Assembly: GCA_030147525.1 (NCBI GenBank)
Contig: JASBVF010000007.1
Coordinates: forward strand, 186,001-250,000
Length of the DNA stretch: 64,000 nt
Direction: 5' to 3'
Source of the DNA: Bacteroidota bacterium
Lineage (GTDB): Bacteria; Bacteroidota; Bacteroidia; Chitinophagales; Saprospiraceae
This document shows positions 3,209-60,217 of the stretch, piece by piece. The stretch's first letter is position 1. Each line of letters opens with the position of its first letter. The notes below the pieces were generated by a model, which saw nothing but the letters and a program-made list of their open reading frames with translations, had not been told where the DNA came from and did not search any database. The position numbers were made by a program, and so were the translations under genes.

Positions 3209-3211
3209 ATA

Positions 3212-3276
3212 ACGATAAACTATGAATGATGAACATTTGCATCGACGCAAGTTCATCGTTCATCATTCATAATTCT
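3212..3276. repeat. Iterated-word inverted repeat between convergent genes
   Basis: The left arm is built from ATGAATGATGAAC-type words and the right arm from GTTCATCGTTCATCATTCAT-type words. A small TTGC...GCAA hairpin sits at the tip. The arms pair with slippage, so the element probably acts as a bidirectional terminator. It belongs to a class of degenerate word repeats found across the window. Confidence 0.7.
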
Positions 3277-3279
3277 TCG

Positions 3280-4302
3280 TTAAAACTGTTCCCTCCAAAC
3301 CACGTCTCCCCAGCGATTGACGTATGCCCAGCGGTCCTGCTGACTCACCCATGCAAGGCCATCCCGAAAAGGCAGCACGGCATCGAAAATCGGTGGAATT
3401 GCAATCTTCCCTTCCGTATCCATGAAACCCCAGAAATTACCAGTTTTTACCTGGGCCAGCCCGTCGGAGAAAACCCCGGCATCTTCATATTGTGGCTCGA
3501 TGGCAATATTTCCTTTTTTATCGATGTAGCCGAACCGACCATTGACCTCCACCAGGGCCAAACCCTCGCCGAAATCTCCGGCAAAATCGAATTGCGGCGG
3601 TATCACGACTTCTCCTTTTTTATTGATAAAACCGTAATGGTCGTTTACAACCACCACAGCCATGCCGTCGAAAAACTCGCCGTTGGCGTAGTTGTCCAAC
3701 AGGTCGAATTGGGGGCGCAACAGCAGTTTCCCATTTTTATTAATCAACCCCCAGCGATCCTGGCGTACCACAACAGCAACCTCCTCCTGAAACGCCATAC
3801 ACTCGTCGAACAACGGAGGGATGACAAACTCACCGCTAAGGTCAATATAACCTGACACCTCGTTTTTGGTAGCCGGTGCCAGACCATTTCGAAACTCACC
3901 TGCCCAGTCGAATCGTGGCTCGATGAAAAACTCGCCGTCAGGATTGATGAAACCGTATTTTCCGGAAATTGCCGCCGGCGCAAGTCCATTGCTGAAATAA
4001 CCTGCATCAGTGAATTGGACGGGAATGGCCAGCCTGCCCCGCTCGTCGATGTAACCCCACTTTTGTACCAGTTTTACTTTGGCGAGATGCTCTTCGAACA
4101 GGCCAACGTAGTTGAAAAGCTGGCGCATCAGCAACCGGCCCTGTGAGTCGAGCGGCACCATTCTGTCGTTCAGCCGTACCCGGGAAAAGCCATTATAAAA
4201 ATCCTCAGCCATGACGTACTGTGGTTCAATCACCACATCGCCAATGGCGTCCATGAAGCCGTACTTGCCATTTTCCCGAATTTTAAAAAGAGGTTTTCCC
4301 AT
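3280..4302 (-). CDS. WG-repeat protein
   Basis: The 340-aa protein consists almost entirely of about nine WG repeats of roughly 35 residues. Each has the pattern (W/Y/F)G(F/Y)(I/M)(D/N)xxGxxxIxPxF, for example YGFINKKGEVVIPPQF and WGFMDTEGKIAIPPIF. Such repeats are thought to fold as a beta-propeller or solenoid used for protein-protein contacts. There is no signal peptide, so it is probably cytoplasmic. No catalytic motif is visible. It lies downstream of the S9 peptidase gene on the same strand, separated by an iterated-word hairpin, so it is probably transcribed independently. The partner is unknown. Confidence 0.85.
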   Translation of the reverse strand: MGKPLFKIRENGKYGFMDAIGDVVIEPQYVMAEDFYNGFSRVRLNDRMVPLDSQGRLLMRQLFNYVGLFEEHLAKVKLVQKWGYIDERGRLAIPVQFTDAGYFSNGLAPAAISGKYGFINPDGEFFIEPRFDWAGEFRNGLAPATKNEVSGYIDLSGEFVIPPLFDECMAFQEEVAVVVRQDRWGLINKNGKLLLRPQFDLLDNYANGEFFDGMAVVVVNDHYGFINKKGEVVIPPQFDFAGDFGEGLALVEVNGRFGYIDKKGNIAIEPQYEDAGVFSDGLAQVKTGNFWGFMDTEGKIAIPPIFDAVLPFRDGLAWVSQQDRWAYVNRWGDVVWREQF

Positions 4303-4337
4303 GAGGAGTTTTGCTCTGAAGCGGCCAAGATAGGGAA

Positions 4338-4418
4338 TTACAATGAGTGAATGAGAGAATGAGGGAATGATTGAATTTTTCGCTCATTCACTCATTCACT
4401 CATTCACTCATTGATTCA
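4338..4418 (-). repeat. Iterated-word hairpin downstream of the S9 peptidase
   Basis: On the plus strand, one arm iterates GAATGAGT-like words and the other iterates TCATTCAC-like words around an AATTTTTCG loop. The second arm continues into the TGA stop codon and last codons of the S9 peptidase gene. The repeat contains TGA in several frames. A transcription terminator is the likely role. Confidence 0.75.
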
Positions 4419-6395
4419 ATCAATCCCTTCGATGTAGTCGGCGCCGTACATGATTTCCATGTTGCCGAGTTCGATGTCCACGCCACGGGATTCCCTGCGA
4501 CCTCCAAGGTTTTTATGTAAAAAATGTTCGGCGATTGCCCAGAAGGATACCCAACTTTCCGGAAGCCGGTAGTCGTGTACTTCTTCGGGGTAATAAAAAT
4601 AGACCACCTCCTTACCTGCTTTTTGAAGGGCGTCTGCAAAAGTATCTGACTGGCTTTGCGGCACCCGCTCGTCAAGGCTGCCGGTAGTCAGAAGTATTGG
4701 ACTGATGATGTCTTTCACGTAGGACATGGGCGAATGCTGTTTCAATAAAGCTGCACCGGCCTCGGTATTTACATCTCCAACCCGGGTTCTCCAGGTTTCA
4801 TTATCAGCGAAAGGAAGTTTGCAAAATGCCTCCAAATCAGAGATACCGTACATCGAAACACCGCAGGCGAAAAGATCCGGAGCAGCGCCGAGGGCATAGT
4901 TTACAGCGTAGCCGCCGTACGACCAGCCCCAGATGCCCACTTTTTTCCGGTTTGAAATACCGGAGCGAATGGCCCAAGTGACCACGTCCACAATATCGTA
5001 ATGCATGGCTTCGCCCCATTGCAGATTACCGGCCTCCGTAATTTTTTTACCCAATCCGGTCGTGCCCCTGAATTCCATGTTGATGACGATGTAGCCCCGG
5101 TTAGCCAACAGTTGAAAGTTTCTATTGTGAAACCAGCTGTTCCAGTGTGTCACTCCGGCCCACGGTCCGCCGTGGATGTAGATGATGGTCGGCAGCGGTG
5201 CTTTCGGCGAGCCGTCGGGTTTTGCCATTCCCGGCGGGACGTACACGTGAACGGGTAATTGAACACCATCACGGGTGGGCACGGTGTAAGCTCTGCGAGT
5301 TGCCAGTTCGTATCCGTCGAGGTGGGTATAATCATTGAATAATTCGGTCAGTTTTTTCGCCGGCCGGTTGTAGTGGTAGTACACGACCGGGCCACCGCTC
5401 AATTTCCTTACGAGCCAGGTGCTGTCATTCCTGCTGGCTCCTGCAAAACTCACAGCGCCGCCAAGCTCCTTGTTTAAAAAATCGAAATCCTGGCGTACAC
5501 TCTCGTCAATGAATATGCGCTTGGCGTCAGCCCAAAGCGAAACTACCGAGGTAGGGTTACCTTCCGGATCGATGGAAGCGCCGTAGGGTAAAATATCAGC
5601 ATTTGGGTCGCTGGCAATTTCGGTTACGTTGCCTGTCGCTACATCGATGCTGACCAGGGTGGTTTTATCCTTGTCCGTGTTATCGGTAGCGTAGATGGTC
5701 TTGCCGTCCGTGCTGACGGAGATAATTTTCGAATGGCCGCCGATGAACATTTCCGGGCTGTTAGGGTAGTTGAAAACCTCAATCCACTGGCCTTCGTGCT
5801 TGCGCAATATCGTATTACCTTCCTGCTCGTTAGGCCGCAGGCCTGCTACCATTCCAAAAAAATTGTCAAAATAAAGTTGCTCGAAACCGTCCATCGTTCC
5901 CAGCCATTTCATGTTGCTGTTAATCAAATCCAGCAAATAAACTCCGCTTTGGCCTTGCGCTTTTGCTTCCAGATCGACCACAACTTTGTTAGGAAAAAGC
6001 GGGCTCAGGTGTAAAAACCGCACCTTTTTAAACGGAGGCACTTCCAGTTTTCGAAGTGAAGGAGAATTCAGCGCTGAGCTGTATATGTGCAGATTGGTGT
6101 CTTGCCGGACGACTGCTACCAGCCCATCGTCATAGGCCGGCGTCCAGTCCACCAGGGCGCCTTTGAAACGCTGTTCTTTTTCGATGTGAGGAGATTTTAC
6201 CGGTACATAGTAGAGCGTGCTGTCCGAGCCATTGGCTTTTTTTTGGTAAAAAACATTTTCCCCGTCCATCGAGAGTGTGACTTTGAACTTGTCCTTTTCA
6301 CGAAAAAGCAGTTCACGGGGGATGAGGTTATCCGGGCTTTGTGAAAAAAGCAGCCAGCCCGGCAGGACTGATAAAAAAGTGAGGAGGTATTTCAT
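4416..6395 (-). CDS. S9 family prolyl oligopeptidase-like peptidase
   Basis: This is an exported serine peptidase of the S9 (prolyl oligopeptidase / dipeptidyl aminopeptidase) type, 659 aa from the ATG at 6395. A signal peptide ends near residue 18. A propeller-like region follows to about residue 360, then an alpha/beta hydrolase domain. The oxyanion region IYIHGGPW is present, and the nucleophile lies in GWSYGGYA (Ser ~492). The catalytic Asp is in GSLDERVP (~575) and the His in EEVHDYRLP (~607). The complete triad argues for an active enzyme that trims peptides in the periplasm. An in-frame TTG five codons upstream is a less likely start. Confidence 0.9.
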   Translation of the reverse strand: MKYLLTFLSVLPGWLLFSQSPDNLIPRELLFREKDKFKVTLSMDGENVFYQKKANGSDSTLYYVPVKSPHIEKEQRFKGALVDWTPAYDDGLVAVVRQDTNLHIYSSALNSPSLRKLEVPPFKKVRFLHLSPLFPNKVVVDLEAKAQGQSGVYLLDLINSNMKWLGTMDGFEQLYFDNFFGMVAGLRPNEQEGNTILRKHEGQWIEVFNYPNSPEMFIGGHSKIISVSTDGKTIYATDNTDKDKTTLVSIDVATGNVTEIASDPNADILPYGASIDPEGNPTSVVSLWADAKRIFIDESVRQDFDFLNKELGGAVSFAGASRNDSTWLVRKLSGGPVVYYHYNRPAKKLTELFNDYTHLDGYELATRRAYTVPTRDGVQLPVHVYVPPGMAKPDGSPKAPLPTIIYIHGGPWAGVTHWNSWFHNRNFQLLANRGYIVINMEFRGTTGLGKKITEAGNLQWGEAMHYDIVDVVTWAIRSGISNRKKVGIWGWSYGGYAVNYALGAAPDLFACGVSMYGISDLEAFCKLPFADNETWRTRVGDVNTEAGAALLKQHSPMSYVKDIISPILLTTGSLDERVPQSQSDTFADALQKAGKEVVYFYYPEEVHDYRLPESWVSFWAIAEHFLHKNLGGRRESRGVDIELGNMEIMYGADYIEGID

Positions 6396-7904: not shown

Positions 7905-8627
7905 ATGAAAACACCTGCATACACTTTTACGCTTCTGATGTCCGTCCTGGTCGCTTCCCTGACATCTTGTTTTACGCCTCGTACGATTGTTCAAATGGAA
8001 GTGGAAGATTCCGAAAATATCAGATGGAATTATGGACGGCAAGTGGTTCGCCTGAAATCGGACAGCATCGAAGCGGAGATTTTTTTTGACACCTACACCA
8101 AAAAGCACCTGGTTTTCGATGTGGAAGTGACTAACTGGAGCAGCCGGGAAGTGCTTGTTTCACCGGAAGAAATTTACCTGCAACAAAGTGATGATGATTC
8201 GCCAATTCCTGCGTTCGATCCTGAATTTGAAATCCTTGGTAAAAAGGTAGAAGCCAGCCGAAGGGAAGCTAATTCAAAAAATTTGGCAGTGGCTGCGGGC
8301 GTCGCAGCAGTTGCGACAGTGGTAGCTGTGGCCGCAACCAGCGATGGCGACAACAGTAATAACAACGACAATGGCAATAACAATTTTACAAGTGTAACCT
8401 ACGTCGGCACCAACGTGGCGCCTCCGGTGCCTGTGGCTTTTTTACCGCCCGACATGGCGTTCTGGGAAGATGCTTCGCTGCGCAAAACAACACTGGCTAA
8501 GGGTTATAAAGCAGGAGGCAAAGTCGTTTTTCCTCGTTTGGATCAATACCGGTCTTTTCAGATTTCTATTCCGGTGGATGGCAGGGTGCTCACGGCGCAT
8601 TTCAGACAGAGGATTTTTCAGCCGTAG
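7905..8627 (+). CDS. Putative lipoprotein of unknown function
   Basis: The 240-aa protein has an N-terminal hydrophobic segment ending in SLTSC, a plausible lipobox with Cys at about residue 23. A beta-rich region follows. A hydrophobic Ala/Val helix at about residues 125-145 (LAVAAGVAAVATVVAVAA) then leads into a low-complexity Asp/Asn stretch. The internal helix could be a second membrane contact. No family is recognised. It converges on the transporter gene, with a shared hairpin between them. Confidence 0.7.
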   Translation: MKTPAYTFTLLMSVLVASLTSCFTPRTIVQMEVEDSENIRWNYGRQVVRLKSDSIEAEIFFDTYTKKHLVFDVEVTNWSSREVLVSPEEIYLQQSDDDSPIPAFDPEFEILGKKVEASRREANSKNLAVAAGVAAVATVVAVAATSDGDNSNNNDNGNNNFTSVTYVGTNVAPPVPVAFLPPDMAFWEDASLRKTTLAKGYKAGGKVVFPRLDQYRSFQISIPVDGRVLTAHFRQRIFQP

Positions 8628-18173: not shown

Positions 18174-18180
18174 GTTTTTA

Positions 18181-18262
18181 ACGATGAACGATGAATAATG
18201 AATGATGAACTGGAAATAGGTAACAGCAAGGTTTATAGTTCATCGTTTATCATTCATCGTTA
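18181..18262 (-). repeat. Iterated-word inverted repeat in the purH leader
   Basis: The plus-strand left arm AACGATGAACGATGAATAAT is answered by TTCATCGTTTATCATTCATC about 40 nt later. It lies between the purH promoter and its start codon, so it would form a long imperfect hairpin in the 5' leader. Confidence 0.7.
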
Positions 18263-26311: not shown

Positions 26312-26387
26312 ATCCGAAATACAGGTGCTCTGTTTTTTTGAAACTTAAATCATTGATATTCAGACCCTCCTGTTTTCTCATTTCTTT

Positions 26388-26427
26388 CGTTTTCTCTTTT
26401 TTGGTTTTCTCTTTTTTGGTTTTCTCA
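26388..26427 (-). repeat. Iterated TTTTCTCTTTTTTGG words at the adaptor 3' end
   Basis: Two near-perfect copies of a ~16-nt TTTTCTCTTTTTTGG word run into TTTTCTCA, whose TCA is the stop codon of the efflux adaptor gene on the minus strand. No complementary arm. Confidence 0.6.
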
Positions 26428-27507
26428 CTCCACTTTCACCAGTTTCAGTTTGCTGTCAGGCCGAATGGCCAAAAGTCCCGTCGTCAGTACCGTGTCGCCT
26501 TCTTTCAGCCCATCCAGTATTTGGACGAACGTTTCATCCCGAATGCCAGTATCCACGATTTTGAAATCAGGCGAGCCATTTTTATAAACAATTACCTGCT
26601 TGTTGCGGGCCTGTGGAATGACGGCTTGTGTAGGCACGATGAGCGACTGGTCGTTGCCTCCGATTTTGAGCATGACTTTGGCGAAAGTGCCCGGCAAAAG
26701 CGCCGAGTCGTTGCCGGCTACGGTAGCTCTGACTTTCAGCGTCCGGGTAGCAGCTTCGACGGCGGCTTCGGTAGCCAGTACGCTGGCGGTGAAAGTACGG
26801 TCTGAACCGGCCACCGTAAAGTTAACCGGTCTGCCTTTCCGGAACAAGTCGCCATACTTTTCCGGAACGGTGAAGTCCAGTTTCAGTTGATTCACCTGCC
26901 GCAGGGTTGTAATCAGCGAGGTTGGCGTCACGTAGGCGCCAAGGCTGATGCTGCGCAAACCAAGCCGGCCGGCATAAGGCGCCCGGATTTCTGTTTTTGA
27001 AATACTCACCCGCACCAGTTCCATATCAGCTTTGATGTTGTTGACCTGCAATTCGCTGAGGTCCACTTCCTGCTGGCTGATACCCTGAATTTTGAGTAGT
27101 TCCTGCTGTCGCTCCAGGGTTTTCTGAGCGATGTCGAGCTGCACCTGCAATTTTTTAAGCTGGGCTTGCAGGTCGTCGTCGAAAAGTTTGGCGAGCAGGT
27201 CACCTTTTGCTACAGCGCCGCCTTCGGTGATATTGAGTCGCACGAGCCGACCGGAGATTTCGGGGCGAATGTCCGTCTCTTCGAAGGCCTGGAGCGTGCC
27301 GGGTACTTCGAGATTTTCTGCGAGGTTTTTAGTTTTTACCACGAAAGCCTCAACCGGAAGGGGGGCTCCCCGGCTGGGACCAGGGCTGGAGGCCGAAATT
27401 TTTTTACTCTCTTCTTTGCAAGCACTGAATAGAGCAAGGATAGCCAGGCAAAGCCCGGAAAATTTCAGCAACAGGGTAATGTGTTTGATCATACTCGACT
27501 TTTTCAT
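26425..27507 (-). CDS. RND efflux periplasmic adaptor (membrane fusion protein)
   Basis: The 360-aa protein begins with a hydrophobic segment ending LFSAC, a lipobox, so it is probably anchored by lipid in the inner membrane facing the periplasm. The barrel-sandwich half-motifs flank a coiled-coil hairpin: residues ~70-100 (GRLVRLNITEGGAVAKGDLL) and ~165-200 (IRAPYAGRLGLRSISLGAYV). Beta-barrel and membrane-proximal domains follow (VPTQAVIPQARNKQVIVYK). It would link an RND permease such as the one at 21174 to an outer-membrane channel. Confidence 0.93.
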   Translation of the reverse strand: MKKSSMIKHITLLLKFSGLCLAILALFSACKEESKKISASSPGPSRGAPLPVEAFVVKTKNLAENLEVPGTLQAFEETDIRPEISGRLVRLNITEGGAVAKGDLLAKLFDDDLQAQLKKLQVQLDIAQKTLERQQELLKIQGISQQEVDLSELQVNNIKADMELVRVSISKTEIRAPYAGRLGLRSISLGAYVTPTSLITTLRQVNQLKLDFTVPEKYGDLFRKGRPVNFTVAGSDRTFTASVLATEAAVEAATRTLKVRATVAGNDSALLPGTFAKVMLKIGGNDQSLIVPTQAVIPQARNKQVIVYKNGSPDFKIVDTGIRDETFVQILDGLKEGDTVLTTGLLAIRPDSKLKLVKVE

Positions 27508-29766: not shown

Positions 29767-30240
29767 TTACAACGAACTTCTTAACATCAGCCAGGCATGC
29801 AACATCACGCCCGAATAAACGCCTGCCAGCACATCGTCCATCATTACGCCCCAACCGCCGCCGAGGTGCTCCATTTTTCGGATTCCAAACGGTTTCCAAA
29901 TGTCGAATACCCGGAAAAGGACGAACGCCAGCGCTAAGTTAACCAATGAAAACGGTACGCCCAGCATGGCGATCCAAACACCCACCATTTCATCAACAAC
30001 GATTTTGGAAGGGTCGTGGCCCCATTCTTTCTCGAGCACGCTGGCGGATTTCACACCTAAAAAAAAGAAAACGGCGATGAGCACCAGCAGGTGCGGCAGC
30101 AGCCAGGCACCTGAAAATTGCTGAGGAAAAACAACGGTTAAAGCCCACAGTAGTATGCAAGCCACAAGCGCCCCCGCCGTACCCGGCGCCACGGGCGAGT
30201 AGCCGCTTCCGAATCCTGTGGCGATGATTTTCCAGAACAT
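29767..30240 (-). CDS. pgpA: PgpA-family lipid phosphatase (phosphatidylglycerophosphate or phosphatidylinositol phosphate)
   Basis: From the ATG at 30240 the product is 157 aa with four hydrophobic helices. PgpA signatures include GSGYSPVAPGTAGALV near residue 10, DPSKIVVDEMVGVWIAM at about residue 85, and a C-terminal GGWGVMMDDVLAGVYSG with the acidic metal/catalytic residues. PgpA removes phosphate from phosphatidylglycerophosphate. The gene lies next to inositol-3-phosphate synthase. In Bacteroides inositol-lipid clusters a PgpA-like enzyme dephosphorylates phosphatidylinositol phosphate, so that substrate is an alternative here. Upstream in-frame codons to 30288 include repeat sequence and are excluded. 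Confidence 0.87.
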   Translation of the reverse strand: MFWKIIATGFGSGYSPVAPGTAGALVACILLWALTVVFPQQFSGAWLLPHLLVLIAVFFFLGVKSASVLEKEWGHDPSKIVVDEMVGVWIAMLGVPFSLVNLALAFVLFRVFDIWKPFGIRKMEHLGGGWGVMMDDVLAGVYSGVMLHAWLMLRSSL

Positions 30241-30253
30241 ATCCAGAGTCGTT

Positions 30254-30363
30254 TGGGAGAATGAGAGTGAGAGGCGAGGCCGTCTCATTCTCTCATTCTC
30301 TCATTCTCTCATTCTCTCATTCTATCATTCTATCATTCACTCATTCACTCATTCACTCATTCA
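30254..30363 (-). repeat. Iterated TCATTCTC/TCATTCAC-word tract downstream of ino1
   Basis: About ten near-identical 8-9-nt words (CTCATTCTCTCATTC and then TCATTCACTC) run for ~75 nt. A short complementary GAGAATGAGAGTGAGAG arm lies at the distal side. The tract enters the last two codons and the TGA stop of ino1. As RNA it is (GAATGAGT)n followed by a hairpin, with TGA triplets in every frame. Confidence 0.85.
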
Positions 30364-31658
30364 TAGTAATAGTCCATCCCCAGGTGCGTGATCAACTCTT
30401 CGCCCATGAGGTGGCGTAGGGTGTTCAGCATTTTTTCCTGTTGCTTGAAAATATCATGCTGAGCCTGCAAGCCCGGCGCAGCCTGTGGTGACTTCAGGTA
30501 AAATGACAACCACTCCTGAATGCCGTACAATTCTGCACGTTTAGCGAGATCGAGGAACAGAGCCAGGTCGAGCACGATCGGTGCGGCGAGGATGGAGTCA
30601 CGGCAGAGGAAGTCAATTTTGATCTGCATGCCATAGCCCAGCCAGCCGAAGATGTCGATGTTGTCCCAACCTTCCTTGTTGTCGCCGTGAGGCGGGTAGT
30701 AGTTGATGCGGACTTTGTGGTAGAGATCCTTGTAGAGCACCGGATTCAGGTCGGGTTGAAGAATTTCTTCCAGTACGCCGAGCTTGGAAACTTCCTTGGT
30801 TTTGAAGCTGTCCGGATCGTCAAGTACTTCGCCGTCTCTGTTGCCGAGGATGTTGGTAGAGAACCATCCCTTGATACCAAGCGAGCGAGCCTTCAGACCC
30901 GGCGCCAGGATGGTTTTCATCAGCGTTTGGCCTGTTTTGAAATCCTTGCCTGCGATGGGGGCTTTGGTTTGCTTTGACAGCTCGACCATGGCCGGAATGT
31001 CGCAGGAGAGGTTCGGAGCGCCGTTGGCGTAAGGGATGCCCATTTTCACCGCAGCGTATGCGTAGATCATGCTCGGCGGGATACCGGGGTCGTTGTTGCG
31101 AAGGCCGGCTTCCAGCTTTTCAACAGTGGAATGAACATCGCCTGCCTCGATATAAATTTCAGTAGAGCCACACCAAACCATGACGAGGCGCTCGCAGTCG
31201 TTTTCTTCTTTGAAGCGGCGGATGTCTTCCATCACAGCTTCAGCCAGTTCCATTTTGGTAGCAGCCTCTTTTACGTGCGGGCCATCCAGCTTACGGACGT
31301 AGCTCCGGTCAAAAACGGCTTTCATCGGCTTGATCGCCTCCAACTCAGGCTTGATCTGGTCAAGCAGTGAGCGCTCCAGCACATTGGCGTTGATCGCCGA
31401 CTCGTACATATTATCTTCGAAAATATCCCATCCGCCAAAGACGATGTCTTTCAAACCTGCGATTGGTACAAAATCCTTGATGAGTGGGTTTCTGTTTTCG
31501 GTGCGCTTACCCAGGCGGATGCGGCCCATCTGTGAAACGGAACCGATGGGGTGTGAGATGCCCTTGTTCACGGCGATGACGCCCGCCATGAAAGTGGAAG
31601 CTACAGCCCCCATCCCCGGGGTGAGGATACCTAATTTGCCTTTTGATTCCTTAATCAT
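30357..31658 (-). CDS. ino1: Inositol-3-phosphate synthase (MIPS)
   Basis: The 433-aa protein converts glucose-6-phosphate to 1D-myo-inositol-3-phosphate with internal NAD cycling. The N-terminal dinucleotide site is KLGILTPGMGAVASTFMAGV. Core family signatures are VMVWCGSTEIY, PYANGAPNLSCDIP (usually NGSPQNT-like), AGKDFKTGQTLMKTILAPGLKAR with the catalytic lysines, and STNILGNRDGEVL. The prokaryotic length is normal. In Bacteroidota this enzyme supplies inositol for phosphatidylinositol or inositol sphingolipids. A PgpA-family phosphatase is next, and a lipid kinase and GtrA follow. CDP-alcohol phosphatidyltransferase is not in the window. Confidence 0.95.
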   Translation of the reverse strand: MIKESKGKLGILTPGMGAVASTFMAGVIAVNKGISHPIGSVSQMGRIRLGKRTENRNPLIKDFVPIAGLKDIVFGGWDIFEDNMYESAINANVLERSLLDQIKPELEAIKPMKAVFDRSYVRKLDGPHVKEAATKMELAEAVMEDIRRFKEENDCERLVMVWCGSTEIYIEAGDVHSTVEKLEAGLRNNDPGIPPSMIYAYAAVKMGIPYANGAPNLSCDIPAMVELSKQTKAPIAGKDFKTGQTLMKTILAPGLKARSLGIKGWFSTNILGNRDGEVLDDPDSFKTKEVSKLGVLEEILQPDLNPVLYKDLYHKVRINYYPPHGDNKEGWDNIDIFGWLGYGMQIKIDFLCRDSILAAPIVLDLALFLDLAKRAELYGIQEWLSFYLKSPQAAPGLQAQHDIFKQQEKMLNTLRHLMGEELITHLGMDYYYE

Positions 31659-35723: not shown

Positions 35724-37007
35724 TCAAACTTTGGCCATTTCCTTCAAAATCAAACTGCTCCGTTCAGGTCCGGTGGAGACCATTGTGACCGGAACGCCGA
35801 GGTATTCCTCCAGAAAACGCAGATACTGTCTGGCCGTTTTGGGCAGTGCTTCGAATTCCGTTACATCTTCTAAAGATTGCTCCCATCCGTCAAAACTTTC
35901 GTAAACCGGGTCGACAGGTACGCCGCAGAGGTCGTAGGGAAGTTCCGTATGGTTGGCTCCGTCGTAGGAGTAGTGTGTAGCAGCTTTGATTTCCTTGAAA
36001 ATATTCAGGACATCGATTTTCGTAACGACCAGTTGACTGACGCCGTTCAGCATGATCGTGTATCGAAGTTGCGGAAGGTCAATCCATCCGCAGCGGCGTG
36101 GGCGGCCGGTGGTTGCGCCAAATTCCCCGCCTTCCTTGCGCAGCAATTCGCCCGTTTCATCGTGCAACTCAGTGGGGAATGGCCCGCTGCCAACACGGGT
36201 GCAATAGGCTTTCGTGATGCCAATCACTTCGCCGATGGTGCGGGGCGCTACGCCAAGGCCGTTGCAGACACCTGCGGTGACGGTGTTCGAAGATGTAACG
36301 AAAGGATAGGTGCCAAAGTCGATGTCAAGCATTGAGCCCTGAGCGCCTTCGGCGAGTATGCTTTTGCCCTGTGCCAGTTGTTCGTTGATGAAATATTCCC
36401 CGTCCACGAGCTTGAGCGAACGCAGAATTTCCACTGCTTCGAAGAATTGTTTCTCTTCTCCATCCAGGTCGAAAGCGATATCGGGCAGTGCTTTCAGCAA
36501 GCCTAGATGTTTGTGCTTTAGGTTTTCGTAGCGCTGTTGAAACTCGTCGAGCAGGATATCTCCGACCCGCAGACCGTTGCGACCGGTTTTATCCATGTAA
36601 GTCGGGCCAATTCCTTTAAGTGTGGAACCAATCTTATCATGGCCTTTAGCTGCTTCGTTGGCAGCGTCGAGGTAGCGATGCGTGGGGAGAATCAGATGGG
36701 CTTTCTTTGCTACGAGCAGGCGGCTGCGGTATTCAAAACCTGCGTTGTCGAGGTTTTCCAGTTCTTTCCGCAGCGTGATCGGATCGATGACCACACCGTT
36801 GCCGATGAGGTTAATCAGGTTTTGCCGGAAAATGCCCGAAGGCACGGTATGCAGGACGAATTTTTTTCCGTCAAATTTCAATGTGTGTCCGGCGTTTGGT
36901 CCTCCCTGGAAGCGAGCGACGATGTCGTAGCTTTTGGCCAGGTAATCCACAATTTTTCCTTTTCCCTCGTCGCCCCACTGGAGGCCGAGTATTACGTCTA
37001 TTGCCAT
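35724..37007 (-). CDS. purA: Adenylosuccinate synthase
   Basis: PurA (427 aa) joins IMP and aspartate with GTP in the first step to AMP. The start MAIDVILGLQWGDEGKGKIV contains the GTP-binding loop with catalytic Asp13. GGPNAGHT is the IMP-binding motif (His41 region). GPTYMDKTGRNGLR, TTGRPRRCGW and VTKIDVL complete the set. Length is normal. It lies 88 bp downstream of the Fur-family gene on the same strand, separated by an iterated-word hairpin. purH is 17 kb away. Confidence 0.97.
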   Translation of the reverse strand: MAIDVILGLQWGDEGKGKIVDYLAKSYDIVARFQGGPNAGHTLKFDGKKFVLHTVPSGIFRQNLINLIGNGVVIDPITLRKELENLDNAGFEYRSRLLVAKKAHLILPTHRYLDAANEAAKGHDKIGSTLKGIGPTYMDKTGRNGLRVGDILLDEFQQRYENLKHKHLGLLKALPDIAFDLDGEEKQFFEAVEILRSLKLVDGEYFINEQLAQGKSILAEGAQGSMLDIDFGTYPFVTSSNTVTAGVCNGLGVAPRTIGEVIGITKAYCTRVGSGPFPTELHDETGELLRKEGGEFGATTGRPRRCGWIDLPQLRYTIMLNGVSQLVVTKIDVLNIFKEIKAATHYSYDGANHTELPYDLCGVPVDPVYESFDGWEQSLEDVTEFEALPKTARQYLRFLEEYLGVPVTMVSTGPERSSLILKEMAKV

Positions 37008-37018
37008 TCTTTGTGAAG

Positions 37019-37102
37019 GATTGGAGGATTGGAGGATTGGAGGATTGGAGGAAAAGCACGCTCGGTAACTTCAATCCTCCAATCCTTCAATCCTTCAATC
37101 CT
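37019..37102 (-). repeat. Iterated GGATTGGA-word hairpin between fur-like gene and purA
   Basis: Four to five copies of GGATTGGA on the plus strand face TCCAATCCT-type words about 35 nt later, giving a long stem with slippage. The distal words include the last codons and TGA stop of the Fur-family gene. It would sit between the two coding regions in any shared transcript. Confidence 0.8.
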
Positions 37103-37568
37103 TGTTTTTCGTTTTTTCGCACGCCCCTGCGCAGTCGCCGTAGAGGTTGAGCGAGTGATAAGTTACATTAAATTTGAGAAGCTCTCCCATCGTATCTTTG
37201 ATTTGCTGGATACGGGGATCACAAAATTCAAACACCTTACCGCAATCGTTGCAGATGAGGTGGTCGTGTTGTTTGTATCCGTAGGATTTTTCGTAGAGCG
37301 CCAGGTTTTTTCCGAATTGGTGGCGCTTGACAAGGTCGCAGTTGACCAGCAATTCCAGCGTATTGTACACCGTAGCCCGGCTGACCCGGTAGCTCTGGTT
37401 TTTCATGTGGATGTACAGTGCTTCGGCGTCGAAGTGGTCGTTGCGACGATATATTTCTTCGAGGATTGCGAAACGCTCCGGCGTTTTTCGGAAAGCGTTC
37501 TGCTCAAGATGGGAAGCGAAGATATTTTTAACTTCCTGAATGATTACTTCTTCATTTCTGACATTCAT
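37095..37568 (-). CDS. Fur-family metal-responsive regulator
   Basis: The 157-aa protein has an N-terminal winged helix (FRKTPERFAILEEIYRRND and VSRATVYNTLELLV). A dimerisation domain follows with the His-rich metal-binding segment GYKQHDHLICNDCGKVFEF. This contains HDH and a CxxC. A second Cys pair is not evident at the end. Residue patterns do not separate Fur, Zur or PerR. Promoter -7 element TACCTTTG lies on the minus strand at 37594-37601. It is divergent from rnpA. Confidence 0.9.
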   Translation of the reverse strand: MNVRNEEVIIQEVKNIFASHLEQNAFRKTPERFAILEEIYRRNDHFDAEALYIHMKNQSYRVSRATVYNTLELLVNCDLVKRHQFGKNLALYEKSYGYKQHDHLICNDCGKVFEFCDPRIQQIKDTMGELLKFNVTYHSLNLYGDCAGACEKTKNKD

Positions 37569-37616: not shown

Positions 37617-37715
37617 ATGGAGGTTCAAGGTTTTGAGGTTTTAGGGTTTTGGAGTTTTATGGTTTCCAGAAACCGCAAAACCTCAGAACTATAAAACTCC
37701 AAAACCCTATCCCCG
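37617..37715. repeat. Iterated-word inverted repeat between divergent genes
   Basis: The left arm repeats GGTTTTGAG/GGTTTTAGG/TTTTGGAG words. The right arm repeats CAAAACCTCAG and CTCCAAAACCC. Pairing centres on GGTTTCCAGAAACC. Unlike most others it lies between divergent genes, so it cannot be a terminator for either. Confidence 0.65.
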
Positions 37716-38712: not shown

Positions 38713-38862
38713 CTTTAAAAGCAGGCGAGTTTGCGAGCAGGCAAGTAGGCTTTAACCTGATTTTTCATTATTTAGATGCCGCTGTTTATAATTGAAATAC
38801 AAAAACTTCCTGCATTTTTGCGCCCCTTTAAACCTTTAAACCTATAAACTTTTCAACCTCCA
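38713..38862. repeat. Low-complexity word repeats before ettA
   Basis: GCAGGCGAGTTTGCGAGCAG-type words follow the upstream stop codon. Three AAACCTTT/AAACCTAT words precede the ettA start. CATTTTTG at 38813 with CGCCCC downstream resembles a -7 element. Confidence 0.45.
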
Positions 38863-38867
38863 CTAAA

Positions 38868-40547
38868 ATGGCTGACAATAAAATCATCTTCTCCATGTCG
38901 GGCGTCTCCAAGACGTTCCCGCCGCAAAAACAGGTGCTGAAAAACATCTGGCTTTCCTTTTTCTATGGCGCCAAGATCGGCGTGCTCGGTCTCAACGGTT
39001 CCGGTAAATCCACCCTGCTGAAGATCATCGCCGGGCTGGACCAGAATTACGAAGGAAAAATCGAATTCGAAAAACAATTCAAGATAGGTTACCTGCCGCA
39101 GGAGCCGGAATTGGATGAAACCAAAACCGTTCGCCAGGTCGTCGAGGAAGGCATGGGCGAACTCATGGCCGTGATGAAAGAATACGAGGAGGTGAACGCC
39201 AAATTCGCCGAACCGATGAGCGACGACGACATGAACAAACTCATCGAGCGCCAGGGCGAACTGATGGACATCCTCGAAAGTAAAAACGCCTGGGAACTCG
39301 ACCACAAACTCGAACGGGCCATGGACGCCCTGCGTTGTCCGCCCGACGATGCGCCGGTGAAAGTGCTTTCCGGTGGTGAGCGCCGTCGTGTGGCCCTTGC
39401 CCGTCTGCTGCTCTCCGAACCCGACATCCTCCTGCTCGATGAGCCTACCAACCACCTCGATGCCGAAAGTATCGACTGGCTGGAACAATACCTGCAAAGT
39501 TTCCCAGGCACGGTCATCGCCGTTACGCACGACCGTTACTTCCTGGACAACGTCGCCGGTTGGATCCTGGAATTGGATCGTGGCGAGGGCATTCCATGGG
39601 AAGGAAATTACAGCAGCTGGCTGGAGCAAAAGGCCAAGCGCCTCGAAATGGAGCAAAAAGCCGAAGACAAGCGCAAGAAAACGCTGGAGCGTGAGTTGGA
39701 GTGGATTCGCATGAGCCCGAAAGCCCGCCAGGCAAAAGGGAAGGCACGTCTCAACGCTTACGACAAACTCGCCGGCGAGGAGATGAAAACCAAGGAGGCC
39801 AAGCTCGAAATCTCCATCCCGCCAGGCCCACGCCTCGGTGATGTGGTGATCAATGCGGAGAATTTGAGCAAAGCCTTCGACGGGCGGGTGCTGTTCGATG
39901 ATTTTTCTTTTTCCGTTCCGAAAAACTCCATCGTCGGCATCATCGGCCCTAACGGCGTTGGTAAAACGACGCTCTTCCGCATGATCATGGGTCAGCAAAA
40001 ACCGGACAGCGGCTCGATTACCATCGGTGAAACGGTCAAAACTTCCTACGTCGATCAGTCGCACGACGCCATCAACCCGGAAAAATCGGTTTATGAAATC
40101 GTCTCCGGCGGCCTCGACATCATCAAAGTCGGGAATTATGAAATGAATGCCCGTGCCTACATTTCACGGTTCAACTTCTCCGGTTCCGACCAGCAGAAAA
40201 AAGCGGGCGTACTTTCCGGCGGGGAGCGCAACCGCCTCCACCTCGCCATGACACTGAAGGACGGCGGCAACGTCCTCCTCCTCGACGAGCCGACGAACGA
40301 CATCGACATCAACACCCTGCGTGCGCTGGAAGATGCGCTGGATGCTTTCGCCGGCTGCGTGCTGGTCATCAGCCACGACCGCTGGTTCATCGACCGTTTG
40401 GCCACGCACATTTTATCTTTCGAAGACGAAGGCGAAGTGGTGTTTTTTGAAGGAAATTACCAGGATTACGAAGCGATGAAAAAGGCGAAGCTGGGGGATG
40501 TGACGCCGCACCGGCCGAGGTTTAAGAATTTGTTGAAGACGGGGTGA
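38868..40547 (+). CDS. ettA: Energy-dependent translational throttle protein EttA
   Basis: This 559-aa ABC-F protein has two ATPase cassettes. Walker A motifs are LNGSGKSTLL and GPNGVGKTTLF. Signature motifs are LSGGERRRVALARLL and the EttA-specific LSGGERNRLHLAMTL. Walker B segments are LLLDEPTNHLDAES and LLLDEPTNDIDINT. The arm insert and the basic linker (KRKKTLERELEWIRM) contact the ribosomal E site. EttA gates the first elongation step according to ATP/ADP ratio. It belongs to translation, not transport. The following MITE-like element starts 36 bp after the stop. Confidence 0.95.
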   Translation: MADNKIIFSMSGVSKTFPPQKQVLKNIWLSFFYGAKIGVLGLNGSGKSTLLKIIAGLDQNYEGKIEFEKQFKIGYLPQEPELDETKTVRQVVEEGMGELMAVMKEYEEVNAKFAEPMSDDDMNKLIERQGELMDILESKNAWELDHKLERAMDALRCPPDDAPVKVLSGGERRRVALARLLLSEPDILLLDEPTNHLDAESIDWLEQYLQSFPGTVIAVTHDRYFLDNVAGWILELDRGEGIPWEGNYSSWLEQKAKRLEMEQKAEDKRKKTLERELEWIRMSPKARQAKGKARLNAYDKLAGEEMKTKEAKLEISIPPGPRLGDVVINAENLSKAFDGRVLFDDFSFSVPKNSIVGIIGPNGVGKTTLFRMIMGQQKPDSGSITIGETVKTSYVDQSHDAINPEKSVYEIVSGGLDIIKVGNYEMNARAYISRFNFSGSDQQKKAGVLSGGERNRLHLAMTLKDGGNVLLLDEPTNDIDINTLRALEDALDAFAGCVLVISHDRWFIDRLATHILSFEDEGEVVFFEGNYQDYEAMKKAKLGDVTPHRPRFKNLLKTG

Positions 40548-42167: not shown

Positions 42168-42270
42168 TTTTCCGCCTGCTTTTCGATCCGTTTTTGAAAA
42201 AATTTGTTTTGCTCCAGCCAACTTTCTAAGTTTCCGCCAGTAAAAAGCGTGTTTGTGTGTTTGCGTGTTT

Positions 42271-42306
42271 ATGGCGGAACAGCTCGAAAAAATTTATGAC
42301 GAATAA
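42271..42306 (+). CDS. Possible leader minigene overlapping the uvrC start
   Basis: ATG GCG GAA CAG ... GAA TAA encodes MAEQLEKIYDE and stops ten bases inside uvrC. Its position could couple translation to uvrC, but coding is not proven. Confidence 0.25.
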   Translation: MAEQLEKIYDE

Positions 42307-47336: not shown

Positions 47337-47344
47337 CAGGAACG

Positions 47345-47430
47345 TAAAATGTAGAATTTTTAATGTAGAATGCAGAAGCTGCGTCTCTCAACATTCAACA
47401 TTAAAAATTCTACATTCTTCATTCTTCTTC
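47345..47430. repeat. Iterated-word inverted repeat between convergent genes
   Basis: AATGTAGAATTTTTAATGTAG words on the left pair with TTAAAAATTCTACATT on the right (15+ bp with slippage) around GCAGAAGCTGC. The right side continues as TTCTTCATTCTTC words into the stop codon of the small gene at 47419. Confidence 0.75.
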
Positions 47431-60065: not shown

Positions 60066-60217
60066 GGTGCAGTATGCCCTTCGGGGTTTGTCCCCATCGT
60101 TTTTTGAGTCGTTCCGGATTTTTGTGTAAACGTGTCGTGACTGCTTGAAAAGCAACCTCCACAAACACATAAACACACAAATACACAAATACACCACACT
60201 TCATCAATCACCTGCAT

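Follow-up and report, generated by a model that had tools for sequence, protein, structure and literature searches.

The intergenic gap at 30254–30363 holds a short word iterated many times, and the question that it raises is whether such a locus belongs to a class of repeats of its own and, if so, how its words arise. It lies in the window, the whole 64,000-nucleotide stretch analysed here (positions 186001–250000 of contig C56 of genome G000, whose 7.08 Mb are distributed over 59 contigs). According to gene calls made with our own codon-model script, the array occupies the gap between the genes 30357–31658(-) and 29767–30240(-), and Pfam identified myo-inositol-1-phosphate synthase and phosphatidylglycerophosphatase A in these neighbours.

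Word arrays of the window

The original prediction, made from the letters of the window, had claimed iterated short words in many intergenic regions, and these proved to be real. Period-7/8 arrays with a score of at least 10 were present in 10 of the 49 window intergenes, as compared with a mean of 0.175 and a maximum of 2 in 200 dinucleotide shuffles; a density equal to that of shuffled intergenes, named in advance as the outcome that would speak against the class, was not observed, the arrays being far above the shuffles. Among the eleven places that had been named, those at 30254, 4338, 37019, 3212, 18181, 47345, 37617, 42245, and 60150 were recovered, while 16606 (score 9, just below the threshold) and 62950 (score 7) were not, and the passing array at 38825–38859 was missing from that list. 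The features are the following:

30283–30363, minus strand: ten 8-nt words, G strand AATGAGAG/AATGAGTG on minus; TRF score 125 with ten copies (TRF span 30283–30362), lag-8 score 64
30254–30276, plus strand: complementary G-rich arm of the same locus, shorter and degenerate; inverted repeat I13, 78%
4341–4375, plus strand: G-rich arm AATGAGTG; inverted repeat I2
4379–4413, minus strand: C-rich arm (on plus) with the same word as the arm at 4341–4375; I2
37016–37050, plus strand: G-rich arm AGGATTGG; I1
37069–37103, minus strand: C-rich arm (on plus) with the word of 37016–37050, a single change in most units; I1
3210–3282, no strand: hairpin of the 7-nt word GATGAAC; I9, lag-7 score 12
18180–18261, no strand: hairpin of the 7-nt word AACGATG; I12, lag-7 score 14
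37618–37709, no strand: hairpin of the 8-nt word GGTTTTGA; I7 and I10, lag-8 score 11
47340–47427, no strand: hairpin of the 7-nt word AATGTAG/ATTCTAC; I3, lag-7 score 15
38825–38859, minus strand: lone C-type array (on plus) of CCTTTAAA, just ahead of the start codon at 38868; TRF 49, gap score 14
42247–42270, plus strand: lone G-type array of GTGTTTGC in the right part of the gap 42168–42295, an exception to the polarity described below; TRF 41, score 11
60160–60194, minus strand: lone C-type array (on plus) of CACAAACA; TRF 49, score 18

Folded as RNA, the stretches 4330–4425 and 37000–37110 were far better than their shuffles (z -10.6 and -7.2), and the fold of the locus at 30254–30363 beat them only moderately (z -2.45, with 3 of 200 shuffles equally good). 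Rfam gave no match at gathering score within the window. Tandem repeats of other kinds are present as well: a 15-nt unit, GTTTTCTCTTTTTTG, occurs in 3.5 copies at 26372–26426, borders the called gene 26425–27492(-) at its 3' end, and appears unlike the 7/8-nt words, and an 18-nt tandem repeat at 8348–8383, its length a multiple of three, lies within a called reading frame, unlike the intergenic words.

Word lengths of 7 to 9 nt had been predicted, and 7 and 8 account for most arrays, while 9 was much rarer: pooled over twelve genus members, lags 6, 7, 8, 9, and 10 gave 2, 69, 66, 14, and 8 segments, with echoes at 14, 16, 21, and 24. GGTTTTGAG has a period of 8, and TGTAGAAT lies within a period-7 array. 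In 450 kb of the own genome, 11 and 28 segments were found at lags 7 and 8 as compared with about 0.2 in shuffles; lags 4–6, 10, and 12–13 gave 0–3 each and lag 9 gave 6, and coding sequence was nearly free of arrays, its scaled counts being 0.6 at lag 7 (as compared with 11) and 0.2 at lag 8 (as compared with 28).

Array-bearing intergenes amounted to 6.7 per 100 kb in the own genome and to 3.2, 8.3, 7.7, and 7.7 in four other well-sampled congeners (260–315 kb each). Seven congeners with samples of 15–47 kb, partly picked around known matches, gave 5–34, G016, a genome from a different genus of the family, gave 12.5 (40 kb sampled), and the remaining 14 members of the family or order gave 0–5 (8–40 kb each); one N-run of G008 sits among the arrays in the density and hairpin counts. 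The genome from the other genus also holds a 187-nt array of alternating 7-nt units (L199, 17804–17990), exceeding the window arrays in length. A scan of named genomes with one word type found, among the matches listed, Nostocales, Xanthomonas and relatives, Caldilineaceae, Bacteroidales, Geobacter, and others; as judged from their names, cyanobacteria made up 48 of the 80 titles listed. Across the phylum, one word occurred in 3 of 296 genomes including our own and its reversed control in 8 of 296, the control being itself a G-rich 7-nt word and thus a poor one; one word cannot gauge the class.

Cyanobacterial STRR are degenerate tandem words of 7 nt. The original prediction knew no name for the class; relatives are in print, here compared on the basis of the passages cited. 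The heptamers GGGAATC and GGGGA(C/T)T of Xanthomonas and Nostoc (Rehm 2015, PMC4692102) have a 7-nt unit and are mostly intergenic, as here, and the opposite-strand pairs of Xanthomonas are convergent, as here. Their G strand is the coding strand directly behind stops and the non-coding one directly ahead of starts, which is the strand rule of our arrays, and their under-representation between divergent genes and varying length at kept places can be likened to what we found. That study, however, describes one G-run (G4) word type per genome, whereas we encountered numerous words, 7 or 8 nt long and for the most part not of the G4 type, and between two species its word recurred in an unchanged gene context 83% of the time, whereas ours are mostly swapped between species. 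Our arrays thus share the convergent pairs whose G strand is directed away from whichever gene is nearer, with 17 of 73 lone arrays against, but neither the single consensus word per genome nor the G-quadruplex-type G-run unit, GGG being at 0.62 of expectation in the arms and absent from most listed consensus words. The octa/heptanucleotide sites of Geobacter metallireducens (PMC2700814) likewise comprise several 7/8-nt words per genome, mostly paired on opposite strands at variable distance, but are described, unlike ours, as putative regulator-binding sites in families of fixed consensus, and the passages cited mention neither polarity nor turnover. The P6b stem of the Nostoc trnL intron (TDNGATT / NNTGAGT, PMC4476775) also consists of 7-nt words, and at a single position one word class has repeatedly been exchanged for the other; it differs in being a single locus in a group I intron with two word classes. 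The TAACTGA repeats of Beggiatoaceae, Cyanobacteria, and five Bacteroidetes (PMC4679880) are intergenic 7-nt tandem words, many near start codons, but of one word only. Heptamers were the most abundant of the long simple sequence repeats of Mrazek 2007, and a polymerase-contact idea was offered for the step (as related in PMC4679880 and PMC4692102, which in the passages cited mention neither polarity nor word turnover for them). Earlier groups have read bacterial heptamer-type repeats as G4 elements, regulator sites, or slippage. The repeat type is only partly described: convergent pairs, the strand rule, 7/8-nt pairing, and word replacement each have printed relatives, and no paper that we came upon in the open-licence PMC literature combines many words with polarity and turnover.

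Vocabulary and turnover at kept places

Within a genome, the same words recur at numerous loci, and the vocabulary is species-biased. Counted as matches and not as loci, doubled AATGAGAG was found 17 times in the own genome, 63 times in G010, twice in G009, and in none of 11 others; doubled AGTAGGCG 15 times in the own genome and never in 13 congeners; doubled AAGGATTG 23 times in the own genome, 3–164 times in eight others, and never in five; and the ATTGGTG pattern 8 times, 1–42 times in seven others, and never in six. Reversed-pattern controls gave 0, save single matches in G001 and G013. The consensus words numbered 23 in 30 intergenes of the own genome and 90 in 140 intergenes over 12 genomes. 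Similar word pairs within genomes were in excess (62 as compared with 42.8 under label permutation, p 0.0035), and the word of a site was more like the other words of its own genome than the ortholog's word was in 36 of 75 comparisons, less so in 11, and equally in the rest. By eye, the loops and flanks of same-word loci were unrelated (ten fetched loci representing eight places, with two pairs overlapping; five AGTAGGCG places), and the longest common runs among four AGTAGGCG-type loci were 15–19 nt, too short to demonstrate donor copying.

At the finding locus, the upstream gene is present in 10 of the 14 genus genomes. Judged by eye, the own genome and seven others of these ten possess word hairpins with two arms, together displaying seven different words, with G011 equal to G012; of the remaining two, G001 has one arm and a different next gene, and G003 has none. 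In G010, the hairpin loop downstream of the myo-inositol-1-phosphate synthase gene (L130) seems by eye to contain a second, ordinary inverted repeat. Over 31 orthologous sites, an array was kept at the ortholog in 106 of 241 cases, as compared with 122 of 982 intergenes generally, and only one side carried an array in 135 of 188 orthologous pairs, these pairs being non-independent and the threshold missing degenerate arrays. Among the 53 pairs with arrays on both sides, one had an identical consensus word, four were one letter apart, and 48 differed more or in length, which bears out the prediction that words change while their place is kept. Random between-genome array pairs were within one letter in 243 of 8469 cases; orthologous words (5 of 53) are only slightly more alike than this, at 68–90% coding nucleotide identity. 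Between species, the location of an array tends to persist and its word to be exchanged, and swapped words at kept places point to a copying process. With a species-biased, genome-wide vocabulary at kept positions, the origin of the words becomes testable by comparison of close strains.

Hairpins and polarity

Complementary arms forming hairpins, as had been foreseen for several places, were scored in 66 of 150 array-bearing intergenes from 17 genomes, five of them outside the genus, with a median loop of 19 nt; the other 84 arrays were not scored as hairpins. A hairpin is the result of the same word standing on both flanks. In 64 of the 66 hairpins, G outnumbered C in the 5' arm; the reverse occurred in none, and two were ties (without the two N-holding hairpins, 63 of 64, none reversed, one tie), while the same arms had more A than T in 33 and more T than A in 30; the arm composition was A 0.298, C 0.049, G 0.324, and T 0.311. 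Skewed arrays without a hairpin followed this polarity in 56 of 73 cases, with 31 G-type and 7 C-type arrays in the left half of the gap and 10 G-type and 25 C-type arrays in the right half, and array-free intergenes had a weak skew of the same sense, at most 0.19. G-rich, C-poor words thus tend to point inward, reading 5' to 3' from the gene on either side to the middle of the gap.

Among the places listed in four word searches, with the listing cut for the richest genome, opposite-strand pairs at most 250 nt apart were convergent in 29 cases and divergent in one. In 119 stretches of named genomes from several phyla, with several stretches per genome and counts therefore non-independent, 130 arrays of one G-word had C-type neighbours downstream in 64 cases and upstream in none, while G-type neighbours numbered 16 and 15. 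As many as 43 of the 64 downstream C-type neighbours lacked a complementary word; an earlier strict test for the complementary word on 84 arrays in 80 listed stretches had given 6 downstream, 0 upstream, and 78 neither. The same polarity in words without G-runs argues against G4 as a common cause, and that in non-complementary pairs argues against pairing as a common cause. Since both arms share the direction of replication and, in tandem gaps (47 of the 66 word hairpins), also that of transcription, and nevertheless have opposite polarity, the cause must have a symmetry centred on the gap middle, such as a hairpin, a break, or the two flanks would provide.

Origin of the arrays

We read the convergent word arrays as fast-changing intergenic satellites with a 7/8-nt unit, whose words would be added inward from both flanks and copied between loci, and we give this reading a probability of roughly 0.4. 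New words would join at the 3' ends facing the gap middle, for instance at a break or collapsed fork in the intergene; they would be taken from another array of the same genome, copied in steps of 7 or 8 nt, after which the two ends would be joined, leaving an unrelated loop, and fold-back copying may maintain the complementarity of the arms. Arrays would persist because their location between coding ends makes them largely harmless. Such an inward addition would fit the polarity, the vocabulary, the unrelated loops, and the turnover. Counting against it, no break, copying event, or donor came to light; one array is almost unchanged in the close pair G006/G007, turnover thus being uneven; the polarity is violated by 17 of 73 lone arrays, in the window by that at 42247–42270; and hairpins in array-free intergenes of five genomes lean, more mildly, to G in the 5' arm as well (98 G-rich, 50 C-rich, 12 ties).

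The local copying favoured by the original prediction survives in part. In some hairpins, the two arms have their units in mirror-image order (the mean rank was 0.826 for 61 hairpins, of which 12 reached at least 0.95 and 6 at most 0.5, in a test biased upward since arms were selected for complementarity), which suggests that arms are sometimes copied from one another. Local slippage with fold-back template switching as the only process, with words of local origin, the 7/8-nt step that of polymerase slippage, and a 5' arm that templates the 3' arm and purges C from itself, is nevertheless doubtful. Template switching has been argued, in the passages cited here, to create stems and to repair them by the 5' base (PMC8794818), a toy simulation with arbitrary parameters yields the right sign of polarity, and the word at the finding locus often starts at the stop codon by eye. 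A purely local slippage is insufficient, however, since a species-biased vocabulary common to many loci needs exchange in trans or a common bias, and since it does not predict polarity in pairs without a complementary word. The fold-back ratchet as the sole cause of polarity was rejected, as the toy model gave a G:C ratio of 2.4:1 compared with 6.6:1 observed and leaves out pairs without complementary words. Fold-back correction together with cytosine deamination could be the source of polarity in complementary hairpins; convergent pairs without complementary words need a cause other than hairpin correction, unless they were once complementary. That the words are selected sites, bound as DNA or mRNA by a putative protein with which they coevolve, we regard as rather improbable. 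Protein binding has been proposed for the paired 7/8-mers of Geobacter and for the TAACTGA repeats (PMC2700814 and PMC4679880, in the passages cited), and TGA, ATT, and TTG are enriched in the arms 2.46-, 2.35-, and 2.05-fold over letter shuffles, words are more alike than letter-shuffled ones (305 similar pairs as compared with 92), arrays persist at their sites as given above, and array edges lie at most 12 nt from stop codons at a frequency of 0.73, as compared with 0.44 under random placement. The many words per genome, the array on one side only in most orthologous pairs, and the varied ordinary families of the eight scanned array-flanking proteins speak against it.

Both the very stable RNA hairpins predicted at two of the three folded window loci and the scarcity between divergent genes (5 of 66 hairpins as compared with 199 of 1021 intergenes) would be expected of intrinsic transcription terminators with unusual stems, but a run of at least four T follows the 3' arm in only 0.04 of the 47 tandem-gap word hairpins, as compared with 0.28 of 107 other hairpins, and start-facing array edges lie at most 12 nt from the start codon at 0.53 against 0.38 under random placement. 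A function as intrinsic terminators is unlikely, and as an account of the arrays we hold it for exceedingly improbable. Only a little better is the prospect of a mobile element or an enzyme-made repeat (MITE, REP, or telomerase-like reverse transcriptase), with which dispersed same-word loci and a telomere-like polarity would agree, but not the loops and flanks, unrelated by eye. Y1_Tnp was matched in relatives both rich and poor in arrays (33 of 40 genomes; the 89%-complete G002 and the 78%-complete G013 had no match). RVT_1, the sole reverse transcriptase model searched, had no match at E 0.001 in the array-carrying G003, G004, G008, and G012 (98–100% complete) and was rejected as the maker of the repeats. 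Copies of one dispersed family, the other outcome named in advance against the class, were not found, and one dispersed element or MITE was rejected, the copies having no common internal sequence beyond the repeat by eye.

Within the reading of inwardly growing satellites, a bolder version, which we consider unlikely, would see in the arrays a telomere-like healing of intergenic breaks in several phyla. Both 3' ends would be extended inward with G-rich, C-poor words in 7/8-nt steps from a species-specific pool of arrays, without telomerase, and then joined, so that each hairpin would be the scar of one healing event while the vocabulary drifts with the species.

As a minor observation on the C-type arrays, those in the centre of L001 and L004 stand, by eye, directly behind what appears to be an ordinary GC-rich terminator hairpin.
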